Shown here in pieces: positions 6,898-27,075 of a DNA stretch of 27,741 bases. The stretch is from positions 1 through 27,741 of the IMG/VR virus record IMGVR_UViG_3300036939_000073. One strand, 5' to 3'. The notes under the pieces are model-generated. The model was given only the letters and a program-made list of their open reading frames with translations, was not told the DNA's origin and searched no databases. Position 1 is the first letter of the stretch. The number at the start of each line of letters is the position of its first letter. Source of the DNA: a virus. The position numbers and the translations under genes were made by a program.

Positions 6898-7245
6898 TCA
6901 GCGGCGAGCGCGTGGGGCGGAGTCCTCAGAGAGTCGCTCCAGAGCCTTGGCCAGGCGCTCCAGCTCACGGTGAAGCCCATCGAACTTCGTCGTCATCAGC
7001 AGCCGCGTCCCGGCCTGCTCACTCTCGGCGGTAGCCACGCGGACCTGCAGCGCGGCAACGCTCGCGGAGCAAGCCTGGAGCTGTGCGCGGTCCTCCACGC
7101 GGGAGCGCTCGGCCGCGTCCTGACGGGCGGTGAGCACGCCCCACGTCACGCCGGAGTTCACCAGCACCAGCACGGCGGTGAGCAGGAACGGAGGAGCCAG
7201 CCAGGGCGAGGCGGGCGGAGGCGAGGCGGGGGCGGCCGAGGACAT
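6898..7245 (-). CDS. Membrane-anchored coiled-coil protein (i-spanin-like)
   Basis: The product is 115 residues with a Pro/Ala-rich start, one transmembrane helix at about 17-37 (FLLTAVLVLVNSGVTWGVL), then an Arg/Gln/Glu/Ala-rich helical region to the C-terminus. A single N-terminal membrane segment followed by a coiled coil is the architecture of inner-membrane spanins (Rz), and a lipoprotein candidate is encoded downstream. A general membrane accessory role is the alternative. The start at 7245 is supported by the late-gene element at 7243-7266, identical over 24 bases to the one in front of the small terminase gene. The frame is open far upstream, across the control region and the terminase gene, but that extension lies antisense to a real gene. 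Confidence 0.7.
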   Translation of the reverse strand: MSSAAPASPPPASPWLAPPFLLTAVLVLVNSGVTWGVLTARQDAAERSRVEDRAQLQACSASVAALQVRVATAESEQAGTRLLMTTKFDGLHRELERLAKALERLSEDSAPRARR

Positions 7246-7266
7246 GCCGTGGAGAAGCGGCGGGGC
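7243..7266 (-). promoter_or_regulatory. Late-gene start element (copy 1, minus strand)
   Basis: Read on the minus strand this is CCCCGCCG, CTTCTCCACGGC, then ATG. The core CTTCT begins 12 bases before the start codon. GCCG and CGGC can pair around the pyrimidine loop. It is identical over 24 bases to 7522-7545 on the plus strand, so the divergent control region is bracketed by inverted copies. Confidence 0.7.
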
Positions 7267-7521
7267 ACCCCCACCCTCAAAAACCACAGGTTTGCCTACA
7301 TTTTTGGATTGCTCGGCGCTCAGCGATCGTGAGCGCGCGGTTACCCCACGCTGCCCCACGGCCACGGGCCTGGAAACTGTCCGGTGACCCCCGGAAATTT
7401 TGGGGTTTAATGGGGTACCCAAGGCCGTAAACGCGCGGAACGACTCACGGGGCCGTGGGTGAGGGTGGCAAAAAAACGAGCGCCACACAGCGCGCGCAGG
7501 CGCGTTCCTGGGGCTGTGGCG
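7267..7521. promoter_or_regulatory. Divergent control region between lysis-like and packaging genes
   Basis: No gene is assigned here. The region separates the leftward lysis-like cassette from the rightward late operon and should carry divergent promoters. It contains AT-rich patches that stand out from the surroundings (around 7287-7310 and 7397-7412), the palindrome GGGTACCC, and the pair CCCC...GGGG around GGAAATTTT. No promoter hexamers could be assigned with confidence. A GTG at 7459 could extend the terminase frame leftward but is disfavoured. Confidence 0.5.
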
Positions 7522-7545
7522 GCCCCGCCGCTTCTCCACGGCATG
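7522..7545 (+). promoter_or_regulatory. Late-gene start element (copy 2)
   Basis: GCCCCGCCG then CTTCTCCACGGC runs directly into the ATG of the small terminase gene. CTTCT starts 12 bases before the ATG. There is no purine-rich ribosome site. Twenty-four bases are identical to copy 1 on the opposite strand. Confidence 0.7.
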
Positions 7546-8187
7546 GCCCGCCCCAGGGGAATCCCGCCCGAGCTGCTGCCGCTGGAGGAGAGTGGCCAGG
7601 CGGAGGCCCCAGGTGCGTCCGGGGGCGGAGGGGTGGACCCGCTCGCCGGTTACAGGTACCGGCCGGGCCGGCGCGGCCCTCGAACCACCCTTCGCCCGGA
7701 GATGATTCGCACCATCGCCGAGGGGCTGGCGCGCACTGGCATGCAGCGCATCGCCGCTGCGCAGGCGGGCACCACGGCGGACTGCCTCAGGGCCTGGCTC
7801 TCCAGGGGCCTGGAGGCGAGCAAGCGCCGGAAGAAGAGCATCTACACGGAACTGCTCATGGCCTGTGAGGAGGCGTGGGCCCACCGGTACGCCCACCTCA
7901 TTCAGTTGGGCGAGCTCACCGTCACCGACAGGCACATGAACCCCAGGTTCATCACCTGGCTCATGGCAGTCACCTCCCCCAAGGACTTCACCGTCCCCAA
8001 GGAGAAGGCGCAGGTGGCAGGCAACCGGCTCGGCCCGGCCTTCGAGATGGTCACGCCCGAAGCGGCTGCTGCCTCGCTCGAGGAGAAGTTGGCCCACTTC
8101 CTGGACACCGAAGAGAAGGTGTCAGCCATCCTCGCGGAATCCGCCGCCGCGCCTGAGCCGAGCGCGCCCGCGGCTGAGGCTGAGTGA
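7543..8187 (+). CDS. Terminase small subunit (probable)
   Basis: The product is 214 residues encoded directly upstream of the large terminase. After a Pro/Gly-rich N-terminus comes a basic helical segment (residues about 52-90: LRPEMIRTIAEGLARTG, then AAAQAGTTADCLRAWL) that reads as a helix-turn-helix, typical of DNA-recognising small terminases. It is followed by ELLMACEEAWAHRYAHLIQLGEL and a region with FITWLMAVTSPKDF. The C-terminus is acidic and Ala/Pro-rich, probably a large-subunit contact. The subunit should recognise phage DNA and recruit the packaging motor. The ATG at 7543 is chosen because the late-gene element abuts it; GTG 7459 would add 28 residues. Its stop overlaps the next gene's start region. 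Confidence 0.75.
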   Translation: MARPRGIPPELLPLEESGQAEAPGASGGGGVDPLAGYRYRPGRRGPRTTLRPEMIRTIAEGLARTGMQRIAAAQAGTTADCLRAWLSRGLEASKRRKKSIYTELLMACEEAWAHRYAHLIQLGELTVTDRHMNPRFITWLMAVTSPKDFTVPKEKAQVAGNRLGPAFEMVTPEAAAASLEEKLAHFLDTEEKVSAILAESAAAPEPSAPAAEAE

Positions 8188-9740
8188 TGGTGGCGAGCGC
8201 CGCCATGCTGGGCGAGGAGGATCTCCTCGCGGGACTGGAGCTCATTCACCGGGACACCCACGGGCGCTACAGCCTGAGCGACCGGGTGGGGCTAAAGGCC
8301 AAGGCCCTGCACGGCACCACCCAGGGGCTCGTAGCGCAGCTCGGCCTCACCCCCGCCGAGGTGCTCGCCTGGAGGTACGAGCCCCGCTACCACCTGCGCC
8401 CGGCGCAGCGCTCTCCCGAGGCCTTCAACCGGGTGTGGCGCACGTGGTTCCTGCTGGGCGGTCGCGGCGCGGGGAAGACGCACGCCGGCAGCGTGGGGGT
8501 GCTGGAGGAGGCCCGGCAGGATCCGGACGCGCGCATTCTCATCGTCGGCCCCACATGGAGCGAGATTCGGAAGACGCAGCTTGAGGGCCCCAGCGGCATC
8601 CTCACCCTCGCTCCGCCGTGGTTCCAGCCCGAGTTCAAGGTCTCCAAGAAGGAGTTGCACTTCCCCAACGGAGCCGTGGCCTTCTGCGTGCCAGCCCAGA
8701 GCGCGGCGAAGTTCCGCGGCTACAACTGCAGCTTCGGCTGGGCGGATGAAATCGTCGCCTGGAAGAAGGAGCCCATCGAGATTTACAAGGAGTGCCGGCG
8801 CGTGCTGCGCATCGTCACTCCGCGCATGCGCGCCAAGGGACTGCCCGCGCGCCTGTGCATCACCACCACGCCGGCCCCCACCGAGCTGTTCCGCATCATC
8901 CTCGGGGCAGAGGACCGCAAGGAGCGCGAGGGGCTCATCCTCGCGCGCAGCACCACCCTCGACAACGCCAGTAACCTCGACCCTCAGTACCTGCGGATGG
9001 CGCTGCGCCTGCTCAACACCACCGAGGGCAAGCGCGAGTACGGAGGCGAACTCTTCTTCGCGCTGGATGCGACGCTCTACCGGCGGGTGAACTGGGAGGC
9101 CTCGCGTGTGCGCAACGTGGAGAGCATCCCTGAGCGCAAGGGCGAGAAGTTCAAGGGGCTGCCGCTCTTCGACAAGGTCGTCATCTCCGTGGACCCGGCC
9201 ACCGGGGAGAAGAAGTCCTCGGACCTGCACGGCATCGTGGTGGTGGGCATCCGCGAGGAGGACGATGGGCTGCTGCACACCTACGTGCTGCAGGACTTGT
9301 CACTGCAGGCACCCGAGCCCTCGGCCTATGCCCGGGCAGCGGTGAAGGCTTACCACGCCTGGAAGGAGTACGCCCCGCCCAAGAAGACGTGGATTTTCGC
9401 CGAGACGAACACGGGCGGCTCCCACGTGAAAGCAGTCATTCGCGCCGAGGACGCCACCGTCCGCGTGAAGACGCAGCGGGCCCAGAACTCGAAGGCCGAG
9501 AGAGCCTCGCCGGTGAGCATGCTGGCCGAGGCGGGGCTGGTGCACATGATGGGCAAGCACCACCGGCTTGAGGAGCAGCTCGCCAAGTTCACAGGGGCGG
9601 AGGGCGGCCACGGCAGAGACGACAGGGCGGACGCCTTCGCGTGGCCCATCTACCTGTACGTGGTGCCCAAGAGACAGATGCGCGGCGCGGCTGGGACAGC
9701 AGGACCGCCCCAAGAGCAGGACGAGGAGGAGGACGAGTAG
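8187..9740 (+). CDS. Terminase large subunit
   Basis: This is the DNA-packaging motor, 517 residues. The ATPase domain has Walker A GGRGAGKT at 91-98 and Walker B ending in D187-E188 within GWADE, preceded by FPNGA and KFRGY, typical of terminases. CITTTPAP is the probable coupling motif. The C-terminal nuclease domain shows three acidic clusters: D336 in SVDPATGEK, E406 in FAETNTGG, and D478/D479/D482 in GRDDRADAF, which fit an RNase H-like metal site. The C-terminus is strongly acidic. The ATG at 8187 overlaps the upstream stop (TGATG); a GTG at 8184 overlapping it as GTGA is equally possible and adds one residue. It acts with the small subunit and the portal. Confidence 0.95.
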   Translation: MVASAAMLGEEDLLAGLELIHRDTHGRYSLSDRVGLKAKALHGTTQGLVAQLGLTPAEVLAWRYEPRYHLRPAQRSPEAFNRVWRTWFLLGGRGAGKTHAGSVGVLEEARQDPDARILIVGPTWSEIRKTQLEGPSGILTLAPPWFQPEFKVSKKELHFPNGAVAFCVPAQSAAKFRGYNCSFGWADEIVAWKKEPIEIYKECRRVLRIVTPRMRAKGLPARLCITTTPAPTELFRIILGAEDRKEREGLILARSTTLDNASNLDPQYLRMALRLLNTTEGKREYGGELFFALDATLYRRVNWEASRVRNVESIPERKGEKFKGLPLFDKVVISVDPATGEKKSSDLHGIVVVGIREEDDGLLHTYVLQDLSLQAPEPSAYARAAVKAYHAWKEYAPPKKTWIFAETNTGGSHVKAVIRAEDATVRVKTQRAQNSKAERASPVSMLAEAGLVHMMGKHHRLEEQLAKFTGAEGGHGRDDRADAFAWPIYLYVVPKRQMRGAAGTAGPPQEQDEEEDE

Positions 9741-9765
9741 CCCCGCCCCTTCTCCTGGGGCAATG
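9741..9765 (+). promoter_or_regulatory. Late-gene start element (copy 3)
   Basis: It begins directly after the terminase stop: CCCCGCCC, CTTCTCCTGGGGCA, ATG. CTTCT starts 14 bases before the ATG. GCCCC and GGGGC pair around TTCTCCT, the same shape as copies 1 and 2 with different stem bases. Confidence 0.7.
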
Positions 9766-11094
9766 GCTATCGGCACTCGAATCCTACGCGCCCTGGGACT
9801 GCGCTCGGCTGGCCGCCCGGTGGTGGCGGCCATCCCCATCCAGTCCTTCCCGGTGCGCCGGGGCAGCAGGCAGGTGCTGGCCGCCTTCCGGGAGAACGCG
9901 TGGCTCCAGGCCGTGGTGTCCACCGTGGCCGAGGCCGTGGCCACGCCCAGGTGGCGGGTGTTGAAGGTGGTGGCAACCGGCGCGGAGGGCCGTGCGCTCA
10001 AGTCCGTGCTGAAGAGTGCGCTGTGGGAAGAGCGGGCGAAGGTGGCCAAGGGCGCCATGGCGGACGGGGCGCTGGTGGAGGTGCGTGGGCACGAACTGCA
10101 GCAGATGCTGGACTCACCTCATCCGAAGTTCACCGGGCGCGCGTACCGGCGCCTCATCTGCATCCACCTGGACCTGTCAGGGGAGACATTCCTCTGGCTC
10201 TCTCGCAACACGGGAGGCAGGCCCAACGGCTTCCAGGTACTCCCACCGCACGCGGTGAGCACCACTCCCATGGAGGGCCTGCCGCACTACTCCATCACCT
10301 ACAACCTATTTTCCGGCCAAGTGCCGGAGAGCGAGATGGTGTGGCTGCGGCACCTGGACCCGGAGAACCCAGAAGGGCGAGGCGTGGGGCGCGGGCGCGC
10401 CGCCGGGGACGAGCTCGACTCAGCAGAGGCCATTCAGCGCAGCGTGAAGGCCAGCATGGAGCGAAGCGGCATCCCGACGGCGGTGGTGGGGGTGGAGGCC
10501 GCAGTGGGGGCGGACGCGGAGGACGCGGTTGAAGATCTCCAGAAGCGCTACGAGGCGGGCTTTGGCCGCCCCGAGCAGGCGGGGAAAGTCCTCTTCGTGC
10601 CGCATGGCGTGAGCCTGGCCGAGGTGAAGATTGACCTGCGCGCGCTGCAGATGGCCGAGCTGGACAAGGGCCTCAGAGACTTCGTGCGGCAGATTTACAA
10701 CGTGCCGGCCGAGCTGATGGGGGACCTCACCTCCAGCAACCGGAGCACCTCGGAGGAGGCGAAGTACACGCTGGCTGAGTACGCGGTGATGCCGCGACTG
10801 GAGTTCCTCCGCTCGGAACTGCAGCACCACCTGGTGCCCCTGGTGGACAGCGATGCGCTCCTCGAGTTCGACGATCCCCGGCCCCAGTCTTGGGAGCGCC
10901 AGCACAAGGCGATGACCTCTGCGTTTCACGAGGGCGTCTACATCAACGAGGCCCGCGCGCTCGCGCAGCTGCCGGCAAGGCCAGAGTTCGAAGGGAAGAC
11001 GTTCAAGCCGTTGCCTGGGGCGATGCCGGTGCAGGACGGGCCCGCCGCCGAGCCGCAGAACGCCCCACCCCCGCGGGGGCCAGCGGCCCGGTAA
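9763..11094 (+). CDS. Portal protein (HK97 type)
   Basis: The product is 443 residues, in the canonical place after the large terminase. The middle and C-terminal parts carry features of the HK97-like portal family: a capping-strand region with GETFLWL and GFQVLPPHAV, then ALQMAELDKGLRDFVRQIYNVPAELMGD with a following helix (SEEAKYTLAEYAVMPRLEFL). It should form the dodecameric ring through which DNA enters the capsid and to which connectors attach. The start at 9763 directly follows the late-gene element; the frame is open upstream within the terminase gene, but those residues are unrelated. The C-terminus is Pro/Ala-rich. Confidence 0.9.
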   Translation: MAIGTRILRALGLRSAGRPVVAAIPIQSFPVRRGSRQVLAAFRENAWLQAVVSTVAEAVATPRWRVLKVVATGAEGRALKSVLKSALWEERAKVAKGAMADGALVEVRGHELQQMLDSPHPKFTGRAYRRLICIHLDLSGETFLWLSRNTGGRPNGFQVLPPHAVSTTPMEGLPHYSITYNLFSGQVPESEMVWLRHLDPENPEGRGVGRGRAAGDELDSAEAIQRSVKASMERSGIPTAVVGVEAAVGADAEDAVEDLQKRYEAGFGRPEQAGKVLFVPHGVSLAEVKIDLRALQMAELDKGLRDFVRQIYNVPAELMGDLTSSNRSTSEEAKYTLAEYAVMPRLEFLRSELQHHLVPLVDSDALLEFDDPRPQSWERQHKAMTSAFHEGVYINEARALAQLPARPEFEGKTFKPLPGAMPVQDGPAAEPQNAPPPRGPAAR

Positions 11095-11117
11095 CGCCGC
11101 CACTTCTGTCCGCCATG
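11095..11117 (+). promoter_or_regulatory. Late-gene start element (copy 4)
   Basis: CGCCGCCA, CTTCTGTCCGCC, ATG, directly after the portal stop. CTTCT starts 12 bases before the start codon. A stem is not obvious in this copy. Confidence 0.6.
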
Positions 11118-11891
11118 CGTCGAGCATCCCCCACGAGTGCGCCACCTCTGAGCGTGAAGGCTCTCGGCACCTTGCGCGAGAAGGCCTCTGGAGAGCCAGC
11201 ACCTCCGGGCAGGCCGGTGTTCCGCCTGAGCAGCGAGGTGCTGGACCGTCACGCCGACAGGGTGAAGGCGGACTCCGTCGACAAGACGGAGTTCGACGGA
11301 AACCCCGTGCTGCTGTGGAACCACGATGACTCACGGCCAGCCATTGGCACCGCGCGCGTCTACCGCGAGGGCAATGAGTGGTTCATGGAGCCCACCTTCG
11401 ACCTGATCGGAGACCTCTCGAAGGAGGTGGCCGCCAAGGTGGAGGCGGGGACGCTGCGCACCTGCAGCTTCAAGTTCAGCATCCAGGAGAGCGAGCCCAA
11501 CGCCGAAGGCGGCTTCGACTACCTGCGAATCAAGGTGATGGAGGTCTCCATCACCAACGTGCCAGCCAACCAGGAGGCAGTCCGCGTGAAGAGCCAGCAG
11601 AAGCAGAAGAGCGAGGGTGAGCAGTCGCCGCACGAGGAGATGGTGGGCAAGGCCCTTGAGCAGGGGGACCTGGAGGCCATCAAGGCGGTGGTGGGCGAGG
11701 CGCTCAAGCCGGTGTTGGAGGCGCTCGCCGTGCTACAGGCGGCCCCGGCCCAGAAGAGCCAGACCGAGGAGCCGCCCCCGCCGCCCGAGGAGCCGGCGGA
11801 GGAGAAGGGCAAGGCCGAGGAGCCGCCGCCACCCCCTCCCGAGGAGCCGGTCAGCAAGTCCTTCATCGAGGCGTTTCGCCTGCGCCGCTGA
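11115..11891 (+). CDS. Prohead protease with C-terminal Pro/Glu-rich extension
   Basis: The product is 258 residues. The N-terminal 160 residues match the HK97 prohead protease family: VFRLSSEVLDRHADRV, LLWNHD with candidate catalytic H70, TCSFKFSI with candidate S118, and EVSITNVPAN at 143-152, which closes the domain. It should cleave scaffold and capsid termini during head maturation. The remaining 100 residues are helical and then contain two Pro runs flanked by Glu (EEPPPPPEEP and EEPPPPPPEEP) and a basic end. As no separate scaffold gene lies before the capsid gene, this extension probably acts as a fused scaffold. The ATG at 11115 is set by the late-gene element. Confidence 0.88.
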   Translation: MRRASPTSAPPLSVKALGTLREKASGEPAPPGRPVFRLSSEVLDRHADRVKADSVDKTEFDGNPVLLWNHDDSRPAIGTARVYREGNEWFMEPTFDLIGDLSKEVAAKVEAGTLRTCSFKFSIQESEPNAEGGFDYLRIKVMEVSITNVPANQEAVRVKSQQKQKSEGEQSPHEEMVGKALEQGDLEAIKAVVGEALKPVLEALAVLQAAPAQKSQTEEPPPPPEEPAEEKGKAEEPPPPPPEEPVSKSFIEAFRLRR

Positions 11892-11902
11892 GCGGGTGCC
11901 AT

Positions 11903-11922
11903 CGCCGCCACTTCTTCACTCC
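11903..11922 (+). promoter_or_regulatory. Late-gene element, distal form (copy 5)
   Basis: CGCCGCCACTTCTTCAC lies just after the protease stop, with CTTCT 47 bases before the capsid ATG rather than 12-14. The capsid gene has its own GAGGA ribosome site at 11944-11948, so here the element does not occupy the ribosome-site position. Confidence 0.5.
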
Positions 11923-11957
11923 ACACCAGCATCACCTCCTCGCCGAGGACAGCACTC

Positions 11958-13124
11958 ATGATCATCAAGGGCTTCACCACCGAGCAGCAGAAGAGCATTG
12001 AGGCGTACATCGCCACGCGCGTGGCCGAGGAGCTGGCCTCCCGGCCCGGTGGTGGCACCGCGCCTCCCATCATCACCTCGAAGGCCGTCACCAAGCAGGA
12101 GCGCCGGCAGGCGTTCACTCGCGCCTTCGGCCTGGGGGTGAAGAGCAGCATCCTGGAGCGCCACCAGAGCAACAGCGACGCGCTGAAGCCCCTGCTGGCC
12201 GCCCGCGAGGTGGCCACCAAGGCCTGGGTGGAGATGGCCAAGAGCGTGTTCACGCCCCTGCTGTTCAGCCAGGGCGGGAGCCTGAAGCCCGAGTACTTCT
12301 CGGACGAAATCATCGAGGTGCTGCGAGACGTCACCGTCCTGCTCCAGGCCGGGGCGCGCACCCAGGAGGTGGAGGGGAAGTTCAACATCGGCAAGCTGAA
12401 CTCCGCCGCGGTGGCCGCCTTCGTATTGCCCGGGGAGGAGCCGACCATCCCCACGCCGAATACGGCCAGCGTCATCCTCGACCCGAAGAAGATCATGGGC
12501 GTGGTGCGCTCCACAGGCGACATGATGAGGGATCCGAGCTGGAGCGGCGCCGAGACGCTCACCAACGACATGATGGACGCCATCGGCGTGGAGAGCGACA
12601 AGCAGGGGCTGGTGGGCAACGGCACCGGCGCCAACCCCACGGGAATCATTCGCCAGCTGGACGCCAGCTACAAGTTCAACAAGACGGCGGCCTTCACCCA
12701 GGGAAACCTCACCAGCATCATCGCCGACCTGGACAAGGCCGAGCGCCTGGTGCGCGAGTCGAAGATTCCGTTCCAGGGCAATAGCCCGGGATGGGTGTTC
12801 ACCTCCAAGACGCTCATGGCGCTCAAGAGCCTGCGCGAGAGCGGCATCTGGATCTTCCGGCAGCAGCTGGACCAGGGGATGCTTAATGGCTACCCCGTGT
12901 ACGTGACCGACAGCATCAGCGGCACGGGCGCCAGCGGCGGGGACCCCATCTTCTTCGGCCTCTGGGCGCAGGTGTACATCGGCATCCAGGGCGGGGTGAT
13001 GGTGGACCTGGACTCCAGCCAGGAGTTCACCAAGGACAACATCCTGGTGCGCGGCATCAGCCACATGGACGTGAAGCTGCGCCACCAGAAGGCCGTGGCC
13101 TGCATCGACGCGGTTACCTACTGA
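11958..13124 (+). CDS. Major capsid protein (HK97 fold)
   Basis: The product is 388 residues, encoded between protease and connector genes as expected. The N-terminal 90 residues are helical and charged, like the delta domain removed by the protease in HK97. The body carries hallmarks of the phage capsid family: PGEEPTIPTPNTASVILDPKKIMGV-type P-domain sequence near 160-180, GNGTGANPTGI near residue 220, GWVFTSKTLMALKSL, GYPVYVTDSI, and a C-terminal IQGGVMVDLDSS region. It should form the icosahedral shell. A purine ribosome site (CGAGGACAG) precedes the ATG, unlike most neighbouring late genes. No cross-link chemistry can be judged from sequence. Confidence 0.93.
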   Translation: MIIKGFTTEQQKSIEAYIATRVAEELASRPGGGTAPPIITSKAVTKQERRQAFTRAFGLGVKSSILERHQSNSDALKPLLAAREVATKAWVEMAKSVFTPLLFSQGGSLKPEYFSDEIIEVLRDVTVLLQAGARTQEVEGKFNIGKLNSAAVAAFVLPGEEPTIPTPNTASVILDPKKIMGVVRSTGDMMRDPSWSGAETLTNDMMDAIGVESDKQGLVGNGTGANPTGIIRQLDASYKFNKTAAFTQGNLTSIIADLDKAERLVRESKIPFQGNSPGWVFTSKTLMALKSLRESGIWIFRQQLDQGMLNGYPVYVTDSISGTGASGGDPIFFGLWAQVYIGIQGGVMVDLDSSQEFTKDNILVRGISHMDVKLRHQKAVACIDAVTY

Positions 13125-13156
13125 GCAAGCCACCTCACCCCCACAAGGACCCTCTC

Positions 13157-14705: not shown

Positions 14706-14729
14706 CCCCGCCCCTTCTCCCGGGGCATG
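14705..14729 (+). promoter_or_regulatory. Late-gene start element (copy 6)
   Basis: CCCCGCCC, CTTCTCCCGGGGC, ATG, immediately after the upstream stop. CTTCT starts 13 bases before the ATG. GCCCC and GGGGC pair around TTCTCCC. Confidence 0.7.
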
Positions 14730-15191
14730 AGCAGCGAACGCCTCGCCTTTCTGGACTGGGTTGCCGCACGCGCCAAGGAGGCCACCCCCTACTCCTGGCC
14801 CTGCACCGAGAACGCATACGAGGGCAAGGGCCTCACCAACCCCCTGCAGCCAGCTGGCCTGGACTGCTCCGGCACGGTGACGTGCGGCCTGTACGTGGCC
14901 ACCCACGGGAAGGTGGACTGGCGAAGGGAGTACAGCGCCGCGCGCCTCCACGCCGAGCTGCAGCCGGTGGAGAGCCCCCGCCCAGGGGATTTGGCCTTCT
15001 ACGGCCCGCCGGGGCGGGTGAGCCATGTGATGGTGTGGTGGGGGGATGGACGCGTGGTGGGCGCCTCTGGAGGCAACCGCCACACCACCTCGGCCGAGCT
15101 GGCCAGGCGCCTCGGGGCCTGCGTGAAGTGGAAGAAGAGCCACCTGTACCGGCCGGACTTCCGCGGCTTCCGCGCGCTGCCCCTGCCCTGA
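14727..15191 (+). CDS. NlpC/P60-family peptidoglycan endopeptidase
   Basis: The product is 154 residues. The NlpC/P60 papain-like fold is indicated by GLDCSGTV with nucleophile C47, PRPGDLAFYG at about 85-93, and SHVMVWWGDGRVVGAS with general base H100; N117 or H119 could complete the triad. It should cleave peptide stems in peptidoglycan. No signal peptide is present, so it must be delivered by the holin or carried on the virion. The usual siphovirus position for such a tail peptidase is next to the hub gene. Here it lies between connector and tail-completion genes, and it may therefore serve as the endolysin missing from the lysis-like cassette. The ATG abuts the late-gene element. Confidence 0.88.
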   Translation: MSSERLAFLDWVAARAKEATPYSWPCTENAYEGKGLTNPLQPAGLDCSGTVTCGLYVATHGKVDWRREYSAARLHAELQPVESPRPGDLAFYGPPGRVSHVMVWWGDGRVVGASGGNRHTTSAELARRLGACVKWKKSHLYRPDFRGFRALPLP

Positions 15192-15642: not shown

Positions 15643-15664
15643 GCCACCCCTTCTCCACGACATG
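15643..15664 (+). promoter_or_regulatory. Late-gene start element (copy 7)
   Basis: GCCACCC, CTTCTCCACGAC, ATG; CTTCT starts 12 bases before the ATG. The 3' half differs by one base from copies 1 and 2 (CGAC for CGGC), which breaks the small stem while the spacing is kept. Confidence 0.65.
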
Positions 15665-16081
15665 GCCAAAGGACGCGTGAGCGTGCAGGTGGACGTGAGG
15701 GCGCTCAAGCGCCTGCGGCAGCAGCCGCAGCAGGTGCTACGCGCCCTGGACATGCCGTGCCGGGACGAGGTGCGGCGCACGCTGGACATTGCCTCCTTCC
15801 TCGTGCCGGTGGGCAACCCCACGGACGAGAGCAACCTGGCGGGCACCACCTTCCTCACGGGCGCCACCTACAACCTGGGCGTGCAGCTCTCCACCACCTG
15901 GTTGGCGGGCTTTGAGCACCCGGCAGCGGGCGCCATTCACGAGGGCTTCCACTGGGGAGCGCAGACGCAGCCCCCGCCGCACTGGCTCCGGCGCTCCTTC
16001 CGGGGAGCCGCCGGGCGCACGCGAAAGGGCGTGGCGAAGGCGCTCATGGAAGGGCTCCGCCACTTCTTCCCGGAGACATAA
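15662..16081 (+). CDS. Minor tail protein, HK97 gp10-like (probable)
   Basis: The product is 139 residues. It opens with SVQVDVRALKRLRQQP and continues through a helical part, SFLVPVGNPTDESNLAGTT, FEHPAAGAIHEGFHWG and PPHWLRRSF. The arrangement of an N-terminal helix, a segment of the type 'VPV.tG.L' and a terminal HWLRRSF helix is that of the gp10-like tail-completion family. It probably contributes to tail assembly before the major tail protein is added. The ATG at 15662 follows the late-gene element directly. Confidence 0.6.
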   Translation: MAKGRVSVQVDVRALKRLRQQPQQVLRALDMPCRDEVRRTLDIASFLVPVGNPTDESNLAGTTFLTGATYNLGVQLSTTWLAGFEHPAAGAIHEGFHWGAQTQPPPHWLRRSFRGAAGRTRKGVAKALMEGLRHFFPET

Positions 16082-16106: not shown

Positions 16107-16547
16107 ATGCCGGAACCGCAGGTTGCACACGAAGTCGCCATTCACATCACCGCCGCGAGCAACACCGCGCTCACCAACAGCAACAAGCTCGAGGAGAGCA
16201 GCACCTTTCAGCTGGCCATTGCCACGGAGAAGGCAGAGCGGAAGCTGCTCAATTCGGACGGGTGGACCAAGACGAAGGCCGTGCACCACTCCGGCTCCGG
16301 CTCCATGAGCGGCAACGTCATCCGCGGCTCGGCGGCGCAGGGGACGATGCGGACGGCGAGCAGCACGGGCAGCCTGGCCTACGTCCACGTCATCCATACG
16401 CCGGATGCCGAGACGGGCGAGGAGAAGGGCAAGCTCTACACCATCCTGATCGAGAGCTACGAAGAGAGCTTCGAGGCGGGAAGCCTGGTGACTTTCAACG
16501 CCTCCTTCACTCTCGACGGCGCCCCCACCGCCATCCTGGCGAGCTGA
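16107..16547 (+). CDS. Major tail (tube) protein
   Basis: The product is 146 residues, predicted almost entirely beta: HEVAIHITAASNTALT, FQLAIATEKAERKLL, GSMSGNVIRG, YTILIESYEESFEAG, LVTFNASFTLDG. This repeated-strand composition, the typical length and the place directly before the frameshifted chaperone pair identify it as the tail tube subunit, which polymerises around the tape measure. The ATG at 16107 is used; a GAAGGAG ribosome site lies a few bases upstream. No Ig-like extra domain is present. Confidence 0.8.
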   Translation: MPEPQVAHEVAIHITAASNTALTNSNKLEESSTFQLAIATEKAERKLLNSDGWTKTKAVHHSGSGSMSGNVIRGSAAQGTMRTASSTGSLAYVHVIHTPDAETGEEKGKLYTILIESYEESFEAGSLVTFNASFTLDGAPTAILAS

Positions 16548-19731: not shown

Positions 19732-19734
19732 GCC

Positions 19735-20523: not shown

Positions 20524-20527
20524 GCGC

Positions 20528-20549
20528 GCGCCCCTTCTTTAGGGGCATG
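20528..20549 (+). promoter_or_regulatory. Late-gene start element (copy 8)
   Basis: GCGCCC, CTTCTTTAGGGGC, ATG; CTTCT starts 13 bases before the start codon. GCCCC and GGGGC pair around TTCTTTA. It follows the upstream stop by a few bases. Confidence 0.65.
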
Positions 20550-22958
20550 AGGACACTCACCGCCCAGCAGGAAGCAGCCCTGGAGTGCAACGCCGGCTAC
20601 AGCACCTTCGCCCGGGTGAAGGTGCTCAGGGGCGCCACCTGGCATGACTTGACGGAACTCTTCGAGCAGCGCCTGGACTTGCTCGAGGAGGTGACGTGGA
20701 ACGAAGCCGTGGACTCGCCGGTGGCCTCCGCCCAGGTGCGCCTGCGCCGTGAGGTGAATGGCTACTCGCTGGCTCCCCTCATCACCACCAGCGCGGCGAA
20801 CCTCGTAAGCGGCGCCTACAGCCCGCTGTTGCTGGAGGGCCGCACCTTCACCGTTGAGGTGGCCGTGGTGCCGCTCGGCATGCGGCCCACCACCCTCGAC
20901 TGGTGCGAGGCCTTCCGCGGGCGCATTGACGAGGTGGACTCCGGCGAGGAAGGGGTGAGCTTCTCCGGCCGGGACTACGGCGGCGGGCTGCTGCAGGACA
21001 CCTGCATTGAGAGCGAGGTGGAGCGCGGCAGCACCCTGGGCACCGCGGTGCAGACGGTGATGCAGGACATTCTCAACGCGGCCGGCCTCTCGGCCTTCAC
21101 GTTGTACACGCCGCTCAGCCCGAGCTGGAACCTCGGCCGCTACGTGCAGAAGAGCGAGCCGGTGGCGGATGCGCTGGCGGCGCTCGCCCGGCAGCTGGGC
21201 TGGGAGTGGCGCTACAAGTGGCTCTCCTCGGGGCCCGGCACGGGGGCCTGGCGCCTCTGGTTTTGGAGCCCGGACAGGGCCGCCACCGTGCCCGTGTGGA
21301 GCTTCGGCGCCGGCACCTACCGCACCCTGGGCGAGGTGCGCACCAGCATTGAGGATGTGCGCAACGTGGTGGAGGGGGTGTACTGGGACAGGGCGGACTT
21401 GGACGCAGCGGGCAACCCCAAGCGCAAGGTGGTGCTGGTGAGCGATGCCACGAGCATCACCGCCCACGGCCGGCGCTTCATGCGCGTGGCGGAAGGGGCC
21501 ACCTCCAACATCAACACCGCGAGCGAGATGACTACCCTGGTGAGCCGGGCCCTGGCGGACTTGAAGGACAGGCCCCTGGGCGTGGCCCTCGAGGTGGGGC
21601 TGCACCCCGGCCTGGAGCTGGGCGACTTGGTGAGCCTCCCGGGCAACGAGGTGCACTTCACCGCCAGCCAGAGCGCCGCCGTGCAGAGCCTCACGCACAC
21701 GGTGAATGCCACCACCGCCTCCACCAAGGTGGTGCTGCGCGGCAAGCCGAGCACCTCGCGCCGCGTGTGGCTGGGCATGGAGCAGCGGCCGGGCATTGCC
21801 CCGCCCAGCCCCTTCACCGGGCCCAATGCCCCCTCCAACCTCTCCACCGAAACCACCGTGCAAGGCTTTCGGCTGCGCTTTGATCCACCCACGGTGGGCC
21901 CGGGCGCGGCCTCCTACGAGCTGCACGTGAGCACCACCAACGGCTTCACGCCGAGCAGCAGCACCCGGCGCAACACCTCGGACGCCACCGAGTTCCCCGT
22001 GACGGACCTCACCCCGGGCACCACCTACTACGCGCGCGTGGTGCCCAGGGACGCCAAGGGCAACCGCGGCACGGCCAGCGCCCAGGTGACGCTCACCCCC
22101 CGGTACGTGGAGCCGCGCCTGCTGCAGCAGAGGATTTCGTGGGGGAGCCTGCCGCTCAACGGGGATTTCGAGGCAGCCAACCTGAGCGGCGCGCCGCCGG
22201 ATGCCTGGAGAATCAACTCGGGCACCTGGGGCACCAATGCGCTCGCCACGACGGACACCTACTCGGGCAGCGCGGCGGTGCACTTTCCCAACCTCGCCGG
22301 CTCACCGGCCATGATTGGTACGCCGTTCACCGTGCGCGAGGGCGAGGTGTGGATCATGTCCGCCTTCTACAAGCAGAGCGTGGGCGCCACCCTCTCGGGC
22401 GTGCTCGCCTTCACCTACCTGGACGCGAACCTCAATGCCGTTGGGGGTGTGGGGCCGCACCCGAGCGTGCAACTGGGCGTCAGCGCCAGCGCGAACACAT
22501 GGACGCGCGCGGTGACGAAGGCAGTCATTCCCGTGGGGGCTCGCTTCGGGGAAATCTCCTTCACCCGGTGGAGCGGGTATGGCGGCACCCTCACCGTGGA
22601 CAGTGTGGATGCGCTGCGGCTGGCTGCCTTCGAGACGTGGCAGTTGCCCACCTTTCAGAACTCCTGGAGCGACTGGAACCAGGCCGTCTTCGGCCAGGTG
22701 GCCTACCGGAAAAATGACTTGGGGGAGGTGCAGTTCATGAGCCTTGCGCGCGCACCCACGCCCGCGCCGGCCGCCTACTCCACGCTCTTCACCCTGCCAG
22801 CGGCGTACAGGCCCCTGAGTCGGCGGCTCTTCAGCGTGGCGGTGAACGGCACCACGGCGGCGGTGCTGGAGGTGTGGACGGACGGCAGCGTGAAGCTGAG
22901 CGCCTCGGGGGCGGATGCCTTCGTGTCGCTCGATGGCATCCGCTTCTCGGTGGACTAG
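20547..22958 (+). CDS. Baseplate hub / tail-tip protein with FN3 and lectin-like domains
   Basis: The product is 803 residues. Residues 1-420 resemble a tail hub: TFTVEVAVVPLG, FRGRIDEVDSGEEGVSFSGRD, ALAALARQLGWEWRYKW, and SLPGNEVHFTASQS, in the manner of gp27-like hubs that bind epitope-like beta domains. A fibronectin-III-like domain follows at about 428-515 (SNLSTETTVQGFRLRF, YELHVSTTNGF, TPGTTYYARVVPRDAKGN). Residues about 532-690 start with LNGDFE and contain PDAWRI, typical of carbohydrate-binding jelly rolls. The last 110 residues form another beta domain, probably the receptor-binding tip. It should anchor the tail end to the host surface. No separate tail-fibre gene follows. Confidence 0.78.
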   Translation: MRTLTAQQEAALECNAGYSTFARVKVLRGATWHDLTELFEQRLDLLEEVTWNEAVDSPVASAQVRLRREVNGYSLAPLITTSAANLVSGAYSPLLLEGRTFTVEVAVVPLGMRPTTLDWCEAFRGRIDEVDSGEEGVSFSGRDYGGGLLQDTCIESEVERGSTLGTAVQTVMQDILNAAGLSAFTLYTPLSPSWNLGRYVQKSEPVADALAALARQLGWEWRYKWLSSGPGTGAWRLWFWSPDRAATVPVWSFGAGTYRTLGEVRTSIEDVRNVVEGVYWDRADLDAAGNPKRKVVLVSDATSITAHGRRFMRVAEGATSNINTASEMTTLVSRALADLKDRPLGVALEVGLHPGLELGDLVSLPGNEVHFTASQSAAVQSLTHTVNATTASTKVVLRGKPSTSRRVWLGMEQRPGIAPPSPFTGPNAPSNLSTETTVQGFRLRFDPPTVGPGAASYELHVSTTNGFTPSSSTRRNTSDATEFPVTDLTPGTTYYARVVPRDAKGNRGTASAQVTLTPRYVEPRLLQQRISWGSLPLNGDFEAANLSGAPPDAWRINSGTWGTNALATTDTYSGSAAVHFPNLAGSPAMIGTPFTVREGEVWIMSAFYKQSVGATLSGVLAFTYLDANLNAVGGVGPHPSVQLGVSASANTWTRAVTKAVIPVGARFGEISFTRWSGYGGTLTVDSVDALRLAAFETWQLPTFQNSWSDWNQAVFGQVAYRKNDLGEVQFMSLARAPTPAPAAYSTLFTLPAAYRPLSRRLFSVAVNGTTAAVLEVWTDGSVKLSASGADAFVSLDGIRFSVD

Positions 22959-23629: not shown

Positions 23630-23908
23630 TCAGCACCGGGGCCCGGGTGGAGAGCAGCGCACCTGCCAGCCCGAGGAGGTGCCAGAGGCGCCCGCGTGGG
23701 TGAGCAGCCCCGCCCGCGCCGCCACCCGTGCGCCGCACCTGCACGTGCCGGGGCGCAGGTTGGGGCGGAAGCGCACCGGGCCCAAGCGGCACGTGGGCTC
23801 CACGTGCCGCAGGCCGCCCTCCTGCGTGTACCAGGCCTGCTCCTCCTTCTGCACCGTGCCGCCGCAGGCGGCGCAGGGGCTGGAGCGCTTGGCGGTGATG
23901 AGAGGCAT
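23630..23908 (-). CDS. Small zinc-binding protein
   Basis: The product is 92 residues with CAAC at 12-15, then H35 and C40 in RHVEPTC, a plausible four-ligand zinc site, followed by CRC at 56-58 and further cysteines C85 and C92. Spacing is not that of a classical C2H2 finger; it resembles a zinc ribbon or LIM-like half. The start codon at 23908 abuts the stop of the sigma-like gene (TGAATG), so the two are almost certainly co-transcribed and probably coupled. It could act as a transcription accessory to the sigma-like factor, but that is inference from position. Confidence 0.7.
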   Translation of the reverse strand: MPLITAKRSSPCAACGGTVQKEEQAWYTQEGGLRHVEPTCRLGPVRFRPNLRPGTCRCGARVAARAGLLTHAGASGTSSGWQVRCSPPGPRC

Positions 23909-25207
23909 TCACTCGGACTCCAGGCAGGCACGCAGGGCGGCAAGGCCCTGGAGGTGGAGCTGCTGCACCTCGGCCTCCTCCAGGCCCATGCGCACGGCGA
24001 GCACGCGCACCGGCGTGGCCGGCCCCTCCAACCCCAAGGGCCCCGCCACCGCCTGCCGTACCAGCGCGGGCAGCTTGCGCAAGGCCTCCATGGCGGCCTC
24101 ACCGAGCTGCAGCTGTGCACGGTGCTCAGCTGCTTCCTCGTGGGCCTGTAGCTCGGCGGTGGTGACGAGCGGATCCACCGCGCTGGGCTGGCTGGCGCCA
24201 CCGGTGCCTCTGCGCACGCCGCCACCGCCGCGGCCGAGCCCGCGCGGGGACATGCTCACCACCTCCACCACTCCCTGCTCCAGGGCCAGCACCGAGGCGG
24301 GCGAGGCGCCCTCGGACTCCAGGGCCTGCCGTAGCTCCACGCCCTCGGCGGAGGCGCGGCGCTGGGCACGGCGACGCAGCTTCAGCCCCCAGCTGGTGAG
24401 GGGCACCACCGACCGATTCTCCTGCACCAGGCGGCCCATGGCCTGGCGGGCCACGCGCAGGGCGTAGGCCGGAAACAGGGTGCGCCCCTTGCCCGCGCGG
24501 CCCGGGGTGAAGCGCCGGCAGTGCTCAGCCACGGCCACCAGGCCCACCTGGACGAGCTCCTCCTGCTCCACGCCAAGGCGGCGGGCCCGTGCGGAGTACT
24601 CGGAGCGCGCGGCCCCCACCACCCAGGGCTGAATCCTCCGCAGCACCTCGGTGGTAGCCGCCTTCTCCTGGGCGCTGGCAGGGCGGGAGGCGCGCACCCG
24701 GGCCACGGCGGCCTCGAGGGCGCTGGCGGGAGCGCCGGAGAGCAGCGTGGCGAGGCCGCCTTCCACGGCCTCGGGCGCGGCGGGCGGCAGGGGCGCCGGC
24801 TGTACGCGCACGCGAGGGGGCTTGCGCTCTCGGGCGCGCGCACGCTGGGGGGCGGGCGCCGCGCGGGCAGAGGCGGCCTTGCGAGTGCGGGCCCGGCGGG
24901 GTGCTGCTGGCGAGGGTGGCGGGGTGGAGGCCTTGCCAGGAGCGTCGGGCGCCTTCGGGCGGGGTGCCGCGGCGCGAGGAGAAGGCGCGGGCGGCACGGC
25001 AGCGGCCTTCGCCTCGGCCAGGGCCCTGGCCACCACCGCGGCGCCGCGCACGGCCATGCGGGGCTTGCGTGCGTGCTGCCGGCGGGAGAGGAGCATCTCA
25101 AGGGCGCGCTCCATGCCCTCCGCCACCCCCTCGGCGCGAGCGCGGGCAAGCCTCTCCCGCTCCACGCGCGCCGTGAGGCGCCGCACTGCCACGCTGCTGC
25201 TGCCCAT
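23909..25207 (-). CDS. Divergent sigma-70-family factor with long basic N-terminal linker
   Basis: The product is 432 residues. Residues 190-265 resemble sigma region 2: VVGAARSEYSARARRLG, then ELVQVGLVAVAEHCRRF, then FPAYALRVARQAMGRLVQEN, which is the helix set that melts the -10 element. A basic helical stretch (266-310) may be region 3. Residues 375-430 end in RVLAVRMGLEEAEVQQLHLQGL, a helix-turn-helix like region 4.2. Between them is a Gly-rich linker (RGLGRGGGGVRRG). The N-terminal 180 residues are Ala/Pro/Arg-rich and disordered, unusual for a sigma factor. It may be a phage late-gene factor. The start at 25207 is chosen because sequence upstream is non-coding; a promoter-like site lies at 25278-25304. 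Confidence 0.72.
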   Translation of the reverse strand: MGSSSVAVRRLTARVERERLARARAEGVAEGMERALEMLLSRRQHARKPRMAVRGAAVVARALAEAKAAAVPPAPSPRAAAPRPKAPDAPGKASTPPPSPAAPRRARTRKAASARAAPAPQRARARERKPPRVRVQPAPLPPAAPEAVEGGLATLLSGAPASALEAAVARVRASRPASAQEKAATTEVLRRIQPWVVGAARSEYSARARRLGVEQEELVQVGLVAVAEHCRRFTPGRAGKGRTLFPAYALRVARQAMGRLVQENRSVVPLTSWGLKLRRRAQRRASAEGVELRQALESEGASPASVLALEQGVVEVVSMSPRGLGRGGGGVRRGTGGASQPSAVDPLVTTAELQAHEEAAEHRAQLQLGEAAMEALRKLPALVRQAVAGPLGLEGPATPVRVLAVRMGLEEAEVQQLHLQGLAALRACLESE

Positions 25208-25249
25208 GGTGCCGCTCACCTCTCGTGGCCACCCCGGCCACGGCTGGAG

Positions 25250-25269
25250 CACCGGGTTGTACCCCGGTG
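25250..25269. promoter_or_regulatory. 7-bp inverted repeat upstream of the sigma-like gene
   Basis: CACCGGG (25250-25256) and CCCGGTG (25263-25269) are perfect reverse complements with a 6-base centre, TTGTAC. It sits between the predicted promoter and the sigma-like gene start, so it could be an operator or a leader hairpin in that transcript. Confidence 0.5.
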
Positions 25270-25277
25270 TGTGAAGA

Positions 25278-25304
25278 ATTTTACATGGTAAAAGGCGCTG
25301 TAAA
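25278..25304 (-). promoter_or_regulatory. Candidate promoter for the sigma-like operon
   Basis: On the minus strand, TTTACA (5 of 6 to TTGACA) and TAAAAT (5 of 6 to TATAAT) are separated by 15 bases. That is somewhat short, but this is the most AT-rich patch of the surrounding kilobase. It would start transcription about 60 bases before the gene at 25207. Confidence 0.5.
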
Positions 25305-25305
25305 A
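25279..25305. promoter_or_regulatory. Operator-like TTTTAC/GTAAAA cluster
   Basis: TTTTAC (25279-25284), ATG, GTAAAA (25288-25293) form a palindrome. A further GTAAAA half-site is at 25300-25305, 12 bases away. The sites overlap the candidate promoter, so a repressor or activator bound here could control the sigma-like gene and perhaps the divergent plus-strand genes. Confidence 0.5.
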
Positions 25306-25378
25306 CATGCCCTGGAGGGTAGCCCATGCCCGAGCCCACCCCGCGTGGCTGTGCCTGCCTGCCTGGAGCGCCCCGGCG

Positions 25379-25591
25379 GTGAGGAGCCTGGAGGAAATCG
25401 AGAGGGAGTTGGCCGGCTTGTGCGCGCGGCGCGCGCTGCCGCCCGGCCTGCGCATCACCGTGCGCTGCTCAGCGGCCGAGGCCCCAGGCCGCCCGCGAGA
25501 GGTGGAGCGCGGCCCGGAGGAGAGCGTGGTGGTGGCACACCCCGAGGACTGCGCCGAGCTGCTGCGCGTGCTGCTGGCCCGGGTGAGGTGA
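25379..25591 (+). CDS. Small hypothetical protein
   Basis: The product is about 70 residues if started at the GTG at 25379, which has GGAG about 12 bases upstream. An ATG at 25307 would give 94 residues, but the extra part (AHARAHPAWLCLPAWSA) is of non-coding character. The C-terminal sequence is regular alpha/beta: SLEEIERELAGLC, GLRITVRCSAAE, VVVAHPEDCAELLRVLLARV. No family was recognised. It is the first plus-strand gene after the divergent control region and probably leads the accessory operon. Confidence 0.55.
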   Translation: MRSLEEIERELAGLCARRALPPGLRITVRCSAAEAPGRPREVERGPEESVVVAHPEDCAELLRVLLARVR

Positions 25592-25630
25592 GGCCAATTC
25601 GGGGATCTCCAGGAACATGCTTGCTGACAG

Positions 25631-25653
25631 GCCCGCTCCTTCTCTCCGGCATG
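25631..25653 (+). promoter_or_regulatory. Late-gene start element (copy 9)
   Basis: GCCCGCTC, CTTCTCTCCGGC, ATG; CTTCT starts 12 bases before the start codon. CCG and CGG could pair across the loop. No purine ribosome site is present. Confidence 0.6.
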
Positions 25654-26037
25654 GACGAGAGCCAGAGGAAGCCCGAGGAGGCGCTTCAGCCCCAGCTGGA
25701 GAAGGTGCTCCGGCACCTCCGGGAGGACGGCCAGGCGCGGGTGCTGCTCATCCACACCCAGGCGAAGAGGGTGGCCGAGCAGCTCATGCGCGCCGCGCCG
25801 GAGCTGGCGCCGGTGCTGAGTCCCCTGCACCAGGAGGTGCGCTTCTCCAACGGGGCTCGGCTGCGCCAGGGGCGCCCGGGCCAGCCGGAGAAGCTGCGCG
25901 GGCACCGCGCCAGCATGGCGGCGGTGGAGCAGGGGCTGGGGCTCGAGGTGCTGGAGGCGGTGCGGCGCACCCTCTTCTTCCGCACGCAGCGCATGGAGGC
26001 GGCCGGGGAGAGCCCCGTGCTGCACCTGCTGGAGTAG
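25651..26037 (+). CDS. Short terminase-ATPase-like protein without Walker A
   Basis: The product is 128 residues. RVLLIHTQAKRVAEQL (30-45) resembles the strand and helix that follow the P-loop in terminase ATPases. FSNGARLRQG (65-74) followed by EKLRGHRAS (80-88) resembles the terminase segment 'FpNGs.i.....e.lRG...d'; the window's own large terminase has FPNGA and KFRGY at the matching place. Where Walker B would end in DE there is VEQ (92-94). No P-loop lysine precedes these parts, so it cannot hydrolyse ATP in the normal way. It may be a remnant of a second terminase, or a stand-alone protein that binds or regulates the packaging motor. The resemblance is from reading alone. Confidence 0.6.
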   Translation: MDESQRKPEEALQPQLEKVLRHLREDGQARVLLIHTQAKRVAEQLMRAAPELAPVLSPLHQEVRFSNGARLRQGRPGQPEKLRGHRASMAAVEQGLGLEVLEAVRRTLFFRTQRMEAAGESPVLHLLE

Positions 26038-26057
26038 CCCCGCCGCTTCTTCTCGGC
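26038..26057 (+). promoter_or_regulatory. Late-gene element, distal form (copy 10)
   Basis: CCCCGCCG, CTTCTTCTCGGC, directly after the upstream stop. GCCG and CGGC pair around the pyrimidine loop. CTTCT is 37 bases before the next ATG (26083), which has its own GAGGAGG ribosome site. Confidence 0.6.
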
Positions 26058-26065
26058 ACACCCCG

Positions 26066-26080
26066 TTGCCGAGGAGGCAA
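26066..26080 (+). promoter_or_regulatory. Hairpin presenting a ribosome site
   Basis: TTGCC (26066-26070), GAGGA, GGCAA (26076-26080) form a small hairpin whose loop and right arm contain the GAGGAGG ribosome site of the gene at 26083. It could modulate that gene's translation. Confidence 0.4.
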
Positions 26081-26082
26081 GC

Positions 26083-26715
26083 ATGTCCGCCACGCCCACG
26101 CCGTACACCCCGCCCGCCGAGCTGCTGGAGCGGGCCGCCAAGGAGTTGGAGCACGCCCACGCGAATGAGCTGGAGCGGGCTGCGCTCCTGTATGAGAGCT
26201 ACAACAAGGCAGTCGGAGGCCGCTCGGCGGCCACCGGAGCGCCACTGCCCAGCTGGGAGGGCAACCCCAACGCTCTGGTGAAGCACGGCTGGTTGGAGGC
26301 CGCCAAGGCGCTGCGGGCGAAGGTGCTGGCCGAGGTGGTCAACGCTGTGGGAGGTGCTGGCCTGGCGAGCGCGGGCACCATCGTGCAGCTGCTTGCGAAT
26401 GCGGGCCTCCTGGAGCACGTCGCCGCCGGGGAGTCCTGGGGGGAGGCGTCCGCGGAGGACCACGTGCGCGGGGAGGCCTTCGCATTCGCCCCGTTCCGCT
26501 TCTCCAGAGATGAGGCGAAGCCCTCGGTGGGCATCATCGAGGGCGAGCTGCCCGTGTGCGTGATGACGGAGCCGGAGGCGCGGGAGGGCATCGCCATGAG
26601 CGCGGAGGATGCTCGAGCGCTGGGCGTGGAGCTGATCGACGCCGCGCGCTTCCATGAGTACGAGAAGCGCCGCAAGGCCGGTGGGAGGCTCCCGCCGCAT
26701 GAGGCGAAGAAGTGA
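26083..26715 (+). CDS. Hypothetical phage protein
   Basis: The product is 210 residues and was not recognised. The N-terminal 60 residues are helical (AELLERAAKELEHAHANELERAAL). A middle segment (WLEAAKALRAKVLAEV, GTIVQLLANAGLLEHV) is also helical. A beta-like part with SVGIIEGELPVCVMTEPE follows, and the protein ends in a helix with AEDARALGVELIDAARF and a basic tail. No signal peptide, membrane helix or catalytic motif is visible. Its ribosome site is GAGGAGG. Its stop overlaps the next start as GTGA, so it is coupled to the lipoprotein gene. Confidence 0.7.
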   Translation: MSATPTPYTPPAELLERAAKELEHAHANELERAALLYESYNKAVGGRSAATGAPLPSWEGNPNALVKHGWLEAAKALRAKVLAEVVNAVGGAGLASAGTIVQLLANAGLLEHVAAGESWGEASAEDHVRGEAFAFAPFRFSRDEAKPSVGIIEGELPVCVMTEPEAREGIAMSAEDARALGVELIDAARFHEYEKRRKAGGRLPPHEAKK

Positions 26716-27053
26716 GGCGCCCGCGCCTGATCCTCACCGCGGGGCTGCTGGTGGCCTGCGGCGGCGCGCTGAGCCCGGAGCTGTTCCAGGACTTCACCCC
26801 GGGCAACTACTCCACCGGAGCGGAGGTGGTGGCCGAGATGGGCGAGCCCTGCCACCGCGAGGGTCGCCCGGGCGGCCAAGAGGTATGGAGCTACTGCGCC
26901 GAGGAGTGCACCGAGGGCAGGCGGGGCCAGTGGTGCCGCGCCAGCTGCGAGGGCCCTTGTCCGGGGCAGTGGCACTTCCACCTGGTGGGCGGGCTGGTGG
27001 TGGAGGTGAGCAACCCCGAGGGCACGCCGCCGCCGAAGCCGCGGCCTCGGTAG
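26712..27053 (+). CDS. BamE/SmpA-like cysteine-rich lipoprotein
   Basis: The product is 113 residues, starting with GTG in a GTGA overlap. MRRPRLILTAGLLVAC is a good lipoprotein signal with lipobox LVAC (C16). The mature part has GAEVVAEMGEPCHREGRP then EVWSYC, the pattern of small BamE/SmpA-type lipoprotein domains ('G...eV.~lGeP......g..~W.Y'). Six further cysteines at about 61-83 probably form disulfides in the periplasm. It ends with a Pro/Lys/Arg tail. It could act as an outer-membrane spanin, a superinfection-exclusion factor or a moron altering the host envelope; the BamE resemblance does not prove a role in outer-membrane assembly. Confidence 0.65.
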   Translation: MRRPRLILTAGLLVACGGALSPELFQDFTPGNYSTGAEVVAEMGEPCHREGRPGGQEVWSYCAEECTEGRRGQWCRASCEGPCPGQWHFHLVGGLVVEVSNPEGTPPPKPRPR

Positions 27054-27055
27054 GT

Positions 27056-27075
27056 CCGCCGCTTCTCTTCCAGGC
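27056..27075 (+). promoter_or_regulatory. Late-gene element, distal form (copy 11)
   Basis: CCGCCG, CTTCTCTTCCAGGC, just after the lipoprotein stop. CTTCT is 44 bases before the next ATG (27106), whose own ribosome site is GGAG. Confidence 0.5.

Follow-up and report, generated by a model that had tools for sequence, protein, structure and literature searches.

A G+C-rich element before the structural genes of myxobacterial prophages: a probable late promoter read by a phage-encoded sigma factor

How are the structural genes of a phage expressed when many of them lack a Shine-Dalgarno (SD) site and carry a short, pyrimidine-rich element directly before the ATG? The question is raised by the IMG/VR virus record IMGVR_UViG_3300036939_000073 (27,741 bases), hereafter the window, which encodes small and large terminases (TerS and TerL), portal, head protease, major capsid, tail and tape-measure proteins. 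We propose, with a probability of about 0.8, that the element, CRCCCCTTCT, is a phage-specific late promoter of the single-element type, read by a phage-encoded sigma factor and yielding largely leaderless late mRNAs. The presumed sigma factor is the product of a gene at 23909-25207 (minus strand), which is absent from the earlier note on this DNA. That note, made from the sequence alone, had favored an RNA hairpin taking the place of the ribosome site, and had listed as alternatives a phage-specific translational operator and a late promoter with transcripts starting almost at the ATG; it is the promoter that the data support best.

All eleven copies that had been reported were found again. 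In eight of these, CTTCT begins 12-14 bases before the ATG (starts at 7543, 9763, 11115, 14727, 15662, 20547 and 25651 on the plus strand, and at 7245 on the minus strand), while three lie further upstream, of 11958, 26083 and 27106, with an SD site in between. A twelfth copy was added at 16058-16067. Copies directly before an ATG are referred to as start-adjacent, and those further upstream as leadered.

7246..7262, minus: element CGCCGCTTCTCCACGGC, directly 5' of the ATG of the leftward gene 6898-7245; predicted leaderless promoter
7526..7542, plus: element CGCCGCTTCTCCACGGC, 5' of the ATG of the small terminase gene 7543-8187
9744..9762, plus: element CGCCCCTTCTCCTGGGGCA, 5' of the ATG of the portal gene 9763-11094
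11098..11114, plus: element CGCCACTTCTGTCCGCC, 5' of the ATG of the head maturation protease gene 11115-11891
11906..11915, plus: element CGCCACTTCT, leadered, with 46 nucleotides from TTCT to the ATG of the major capsid gene 11958-13124
14709..14726, plus: element CGCCCCTTCTCCCGGGGC, 5' of the ATG of the NlpC/P60 protein gene 14727-15191
15645..15661, plus: element CACCCCTTCTCCACGAC, 5' of the ATG of the tail gene 15662-16081
16058..16067, plus: element CGCCACTTCT, the twelfth copy, within the 3' end of the preceding gene and 43 nucleotides upstream of the tail-tube gene 16107-16547
20529..20546, plus: element CGCCCCTTCTTTAGGGGC, 5' of the ATG of the tail fibre/tip protein gene 20547-22958
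23909..25207, minus: predicted sigma-70-family protein of 432 amino acids, with region 2 at residues 190-264 and possibly a region 4-like C-terminus; the putative reader of the element
25634..25650, plus: element CGCTCCTTCTCTCCGGC, 5' of the ATG of the gene 25651-26037
26041..26050, plus: element CGCCGCTTCT, leadered, before the gene 26083-26715, with the SD site GAGGAGG present
27057..27066, plus: element CGCCGCTTCT, leadered, before the gene 27106-27330, with the SD site GGAG present

The pattern C[AG]C[CT]NCTTCT-N7-9-ATG occurs eight times in the window, whereas 300 first-order Markov resamples contain it 0.04 times on average and at most once. The hexamer CTTCTC alone was found 43 times where 13 were expected, and being this frequent it is not specific by itself; it was ruled out as the whole signal. 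The twelfth copy is possibly, though uncertainly, the leadered promoter of the tail-tube gene, as no match was found at 19 of 20 orthologues of that gene.

No close phage was found in the INPHARED database, where the best terminase identity was about 33%. Searching viral contigs with a single terminase protein gave no match, and a single genome-contig scan gave one locus; the relatives were opened up by a two-row alignment and a genome search of the family (a family sample of 96 genomes and a phylum sample of 195 were used). They proved to be prophages in Archangium lansinium and in many genomes within the same family, and the host of the window is therefore most likely a myxobacterium of the Myxococcaceae group.

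About 140 distinct start-adjacent copies were collected from the related Myxococcaceae prophages, chosen solely by a CTTCT-like core near an ATG. These give the consensus C-R-CCCC-TTCT-N3/4-GG(G)-Y-ATG, where R is G or A and TTCT lies 11 or 12 bases before the ATG (this distance is denoted d), i.e. the spacing seen in the window is kept in its relatives. The C six bases before TTCT is invariant (138 out of 138 start-adjacent copies), and the base at -1 from the ATG is C or T in every one. A positional count of 5-mers upstream of the candidate ATGs of 820 predicted genes in the related loci, with no motif supplied, ranked CCCTT at -15, CTTCT at -13 and CCTTC at -14 at the top. In profiles of 80 start-adjacent copies with d=12 and 60 leadered copies, conservation covers positions -6 to +3 around TTCT and is flat further upstream, with no conserved -35 block.

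The same 10-mer occurs in two layouts, as it was also found in intergenic gaps without an adjoining ATG, in 45 distinct leadered copies (after filtering and de-duplication) situated 30-60 nucleotides upstream of a start codon. Of these 45, 37 have an SD core before the ATG, compared to 13 of 139 distinct start-adjacent copies, in agreement with the earlier observation that most of the start-adjacent genes lack a ribosome site. What the layouts share is a pyrimidine-purine (YR) step at a set distance from TTCT. Among the leadered copies the step is at +11 in 28 of 45, and anywhere from +11 to +13 in 43 of 45, while control windows of three bases, not sharing two of these positions, contain a YR step in 17-36 of 45. 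In start-adjacent copies it is the C|A of C|ATG, at +11 or +12. Two copies have their ATG at +13, namely the portal copy of the window (9763) and one in a related prophage (L009, 15497); here the ATG is one base further out, yet the YR step (C|A in the portal copy) is still at +12, 12 nucleotides after TTCT. A YR step at a fixed distance in both layouts is what would be expected of a transcription initiator.

Which layout a gene has is a conserved property of that gene. TerS is start-adjacent in 28 of 29 orthologues, portal and head protease each in 26 of 29, and the 15662 gene in 22 of 25, while the major capsid gene is leadered in 18 of 22 orthologues and start-adjacent in none. The TerL gene, whose start overlaps the preceding gene, is usually without the element. 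It is before structural genes that the element sits, and their function is the ground for regarding them as late.

In the mechanism that we propose, the phage sigma factor would direct the host RNA polymerase to the single 10-bp element CRCCCCTTCT, situated roughly one helical turn before the point where transcription starts. For most of the marked structural genes this start would be the A of the ATG, and a transcript beginning there would be leaderless and hence need no SD site. For the major capsid and some other genes, the same promoter would be placed 30-60 nucleotides upstream, which would yield a leader with an SD site. More speculatively, and with the odds in our view slightly against it, the phage may use its own sigma factor to switch head assembly to leaderless translation, with promoter placement setting relative protein amounts (an SD leader for the abundant capsid, leaderless mRNAs for the low-copy portal, protease and TerS), and sigma factor and promoter may have diverged jointly, giving two or three specificities at the least across the phage lineages of myxobacteria.

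The two layouts also bear on the idea that the element is an RNA hairpin or translational operator, in which the CCCC...GGGG arms would pair just before the AUG, where a phage protein or a ribosome component would bind them and control late-gene translation. The arms of most start-adjacent copies are indeed complementary, it is mainly in that layout that GG(G) is conserved, the copies stand directly before an AUG without an SD site, and a start-associated 13-mer with GGG/CCC ends is known from cluster K mycobacteriophages (PMC3203893). The 10-mer is, however, also found 30-60 nucleotides upstream of genes that do have SD sites, and the stem covariation described in the earlier note did not hold up. 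Every stem register tested in start-adjacent copies gives a covariation z below 2, and the mean best stem is 3.90 both for the real copies and after shuffling the right halves between sites. In the main register, no compensatory changes occur in 80 copies with d=12, and four pair cells do in 59 copies with d=11. The outermost pair, of the purine with the base before the ATG, is G-C in 67 of the 80 d=12 copies, with three one-sided changes and ten mismatches. The fold energy of the real copies is no better than when halves are swapped between sites. The two halves are complementary because each of them is conserved, and a covarying hairpin was rejected. The GCCG/CGGC pair given in that note was seen solely in the divergent copies at 7245/7543 of the window. 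We consider this explanation unlikely.

Another conceivable role in translation, namely that the pyrimidine element base-pairs with ribosomal RNA in place of an SD site, appears practically negligible. The complement of CRCCCCUUCU, AGAAGGGGYG, is a sequence that we take to occur in other bacterial 23S rRNAs, but the leadered copies have ordinary SD sites, and pairing with 23S rRNA was discarded when the host 23S rRNA locus was found to be without AGAAGGGG.

The candidate for reading the promoter, the 432-residue product of 23909-25207, is by its profile matches and predicted fold a putative sigma-70-family factor. The Pfam domain Sigma70_r2 (PF04542) matches the window protein with 25.7 bits (cut-off 24), and six out of eight members of the protein family at E <= 0.01. 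With a profile built from all eight, RpoS structures are hit over regions 2-4 (E 8e-12), and SigA, RpoH and FliA more weakly; two relatives have PHROG matches that bear the name 'RNA polymerase sigma factor'. In an AlphaFold model (pLDDT 83, pTM 0.45) the top PDB fold matches are sigma factors in RNA polymerase complexes, with a TM score of about 0.3, the poor overall superposition being due to domains that are not confidently placed in the model. No detectable homologue of the window protein was found by tblastn in 50,697 INPHARED phage records. When other candidate regulators (266-residue, 143-residue and HTH-M78 proteins, among others) were searched with Pfam, no sigma factor or polymerase was identified.

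The sigma gene and the element occur together. Strong sigma matches (E <= 1e-59) numbered 29, in 21 of the 96 family genomes, and the TerL of the close lineage was found in 29 copies in the same 21 genomes, with counts equal to those of the sigma in each. In two more genomes no strong sigma was found, and the terminase either contains a stop codon (G016) or is fragmented (G020). In the phylum sample the sigma was found in 21 of the 195 genomes, again the same 21. The pattern CCCCTTCT-N2-6-GGCATG is present in 137 copies in the sigma genomes, against 15 for a reversed-pattern control, and in 43 copies in the other 75 genomes, against 41 for the control. With no excess outside these prophages, a host-wide element was ruled out, and the comparison with host genomes that had been suggested as a check thereby came out in favor of a phage signal. 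A strict-pattern scan of 2.9 million viral contigs returned 53 stretches, mainly of this lineage; most of those on contigs with several matches carry its TerL or sigma, while lone matches in contigs of lower G+C content come without either. Separately, an identical chromosomal copy, CCCCTTCTACGTGGGCATG, is situated away from the prophages in several related genomes, namely G017:C480, G018, G019, G020, G022 and G030:C15.

This distribution is relevant to two further explanations. One is that the promoter has a different reader, either an alternative sigma of the host or an activator of the phage, and that the phage sigma serves other genes; the link between sigma and element does rest on co-occurrence and fold. 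Host genomes without these prophages nevertheless show no excess of the element, and the sigma, together with the integrase and the 266-residue protein, is one of the non-structural genes most widely shared between the prophages compared. Clustering of the proteins of 18 regions placed the sigma in 11 element-bearing prophages, the window included, and in none of four regions of a more distant lineage, in which a diverged sigma accompanies a different element. A different reader is thus highly unlikely. The second is RNA processing, whereby a long polycistronic late RNA would be cut at the YR step 11-13 nucleotides after TTCT into leaderless and short-leader mRNAs. Its geometry would be the same as that of the promoter, and the elements do lie between closely packed genes. 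Against this, the element also stands ahead of the two genes with which the divergent operons begin (7245/7543), where no processing site is needed, and its co-occurrence with the sigma gene is strict. Furthermore, we know of no nuclease with a 10-nucleotide CRCCCCUUCU site, and we give this possibility very little credence.

The distant lineage consists of prophages whose terminase is more distant (E about 1e-74) and which lack the CRCCCCTTCT element. A diverged sigma is encoded just upstream of their TerL (Sigma70_r2 E 1e-7 to 2e-11), and several of their genes are preceded by other start-associated elements, either ...CGCACGCATTTACCGGG(T/G)GC(A)-ATG or GCGGAAAGYGTCCCCATAAAG...ATG, with the short forms GCATTTACC-GGG(T/G)GC-ATG and GGAAAGYGTCCCCATAAAG. 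Where the first is leadered, GCATTTACC-GGGGGCA is retained and the ATG is not. With different elements beside a diverged sigma, the left half therefore differs with the sigma, while one of the two subgroups has the GG(G)-C-A start region in common with the lineage of the window. That another left half goes with a retained GGG(G)GCA also speaks against the hairpin. Elements of these types (GCATTTACCGGG.. and GGAAAGYGTCCCCATAAAG..) were located on the minus strand in L076 (16517, 12658, 3112) and L077 (15309, 11478, 1296), and furthermore in L078 (7398, 11974), L079 (7540, 12579), L080 (6307, 10675) and L082 (7375, 11905).

Several observations weigh against a promoter read by the phage sigma factor. 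For a melting element, the 10-mer has an unusually high G+C content. The conserved GG(G) at -4 to -2 is strong when the copy is start-adjacent and weak when it is leadered, and part of this GG(G) may therefore serve something besides promoter recognition. The Pfam region 4 domain (PF04545) gave a weak match in one of the eight sigma members (E 0.0035), although the profile aligns through region 4 of RpoS. Only a handful of element copies were found in the distant lineage. The sole exception to the co-occurrence is prophage L072 (G016:C1 1224001-1243900), which has several elements, a stop codon in TerL and no intact sigma; it is probably a decaying copy. The co-occurrence itself partly reflects the shared descent of one phage lineage. 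Finally, we infer the transcription start, recognition by this sigma, late timing and leaderless translation.

Other features of the window lie apart from the late genes. At its left end (2-195) there are three 36-nucleotide direct repeats with near-perfect palindromes (CACTTCCCACTGAGTGGGAAGTG type), possibly host-side or attachment-region repeats. Positions 456-854 weakly match a protein kinase in its N-terminal part (E 0.009, below the cut-off), and may represent a truncated kinase gene close to the end of the prophage. In the early operon, a C5-cytosine DNA methylase gene (3121-4704) adjoins one for an MT-A70-type methylase (4701-5324).

If read correctly, the locus assigns a likely function and a defined regulon to an unannotated phage protein family, in a host group with little-studied phage transcription. 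It also predicts leaderless structural genes under one factor, which makes the purpose of leaderless translation testable inside one operon, and it offers sigma-promoter pairs that form a natural series, in which the divergence of specificity can be studied. A G+C-rich promoter may moreover be of use in myxobacterial genetics. In searches of the literature and of phage databases, neither the G+C-rich element, nor its coincidence with the ATG, nor this protein family was found described.

The closest parallels are the phage-encoded late sigma factors gp55 of T4 and gp36 of phiEco32, which use single-element promoters without a -35 element (PMC2988020, PMC8948821). As in these systems, a sigma-70-family phage protein goes with presumably late genes and with a short element, at most about one helical turn upstream of the predicted start, without a -35 element, and as between phiEco32 and 7-11, diverged sigmas accompany different promoter motifs. 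The window element differs in being G+C-rich (CRCCCCTTCT) and not AT-rich, in that the start predicted from it falls on the ATG for most head genes, and in belonging to tailed prophages of myxobacteria. The window sigma furthermore appears to keep a region 4-like C-terminus, whereas phiEco32 gp36 is reported to be without one.

A second parallel is found in the start-associated sequences (SAS) and extended SAS (ESAS) of cluster K mycobacteriophages, which are likewise short, asymmetric, phage-specific repeats with complementary ends, placed directly before many start codons and rare in the host; the ESAS was later read as containing promoters (PMC3203893, PMC11373665). The SAS, however, contains the SD core AGGAG, marks non-structural genes and is always a few nucleotides from the start codon, whereas the window element has no AGGAG in its consensus, marks structural genes, is also found leadered (the 45 distinct copies) and accompanies a phage sigma. 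The late promoters of phiKZ, with their TATG (as reported in PMC5312081), are similarly minimal and overlap an ATG-like sequence, but are read by a phage multisubunit RNA polymerase with the start at the G of TATG, where we propose a sigma factor. Lastly, in mycobacterial leaderless mRNAs (PMC4633059) the promoter is likewise set so that the transcript begins with ATG or GTG and has no SD site; those mRNAs are host-wide and depend on host sigma factors, whereas here the arrangement would be that of one phage regulon, in a phage whose other genes use SD sites.

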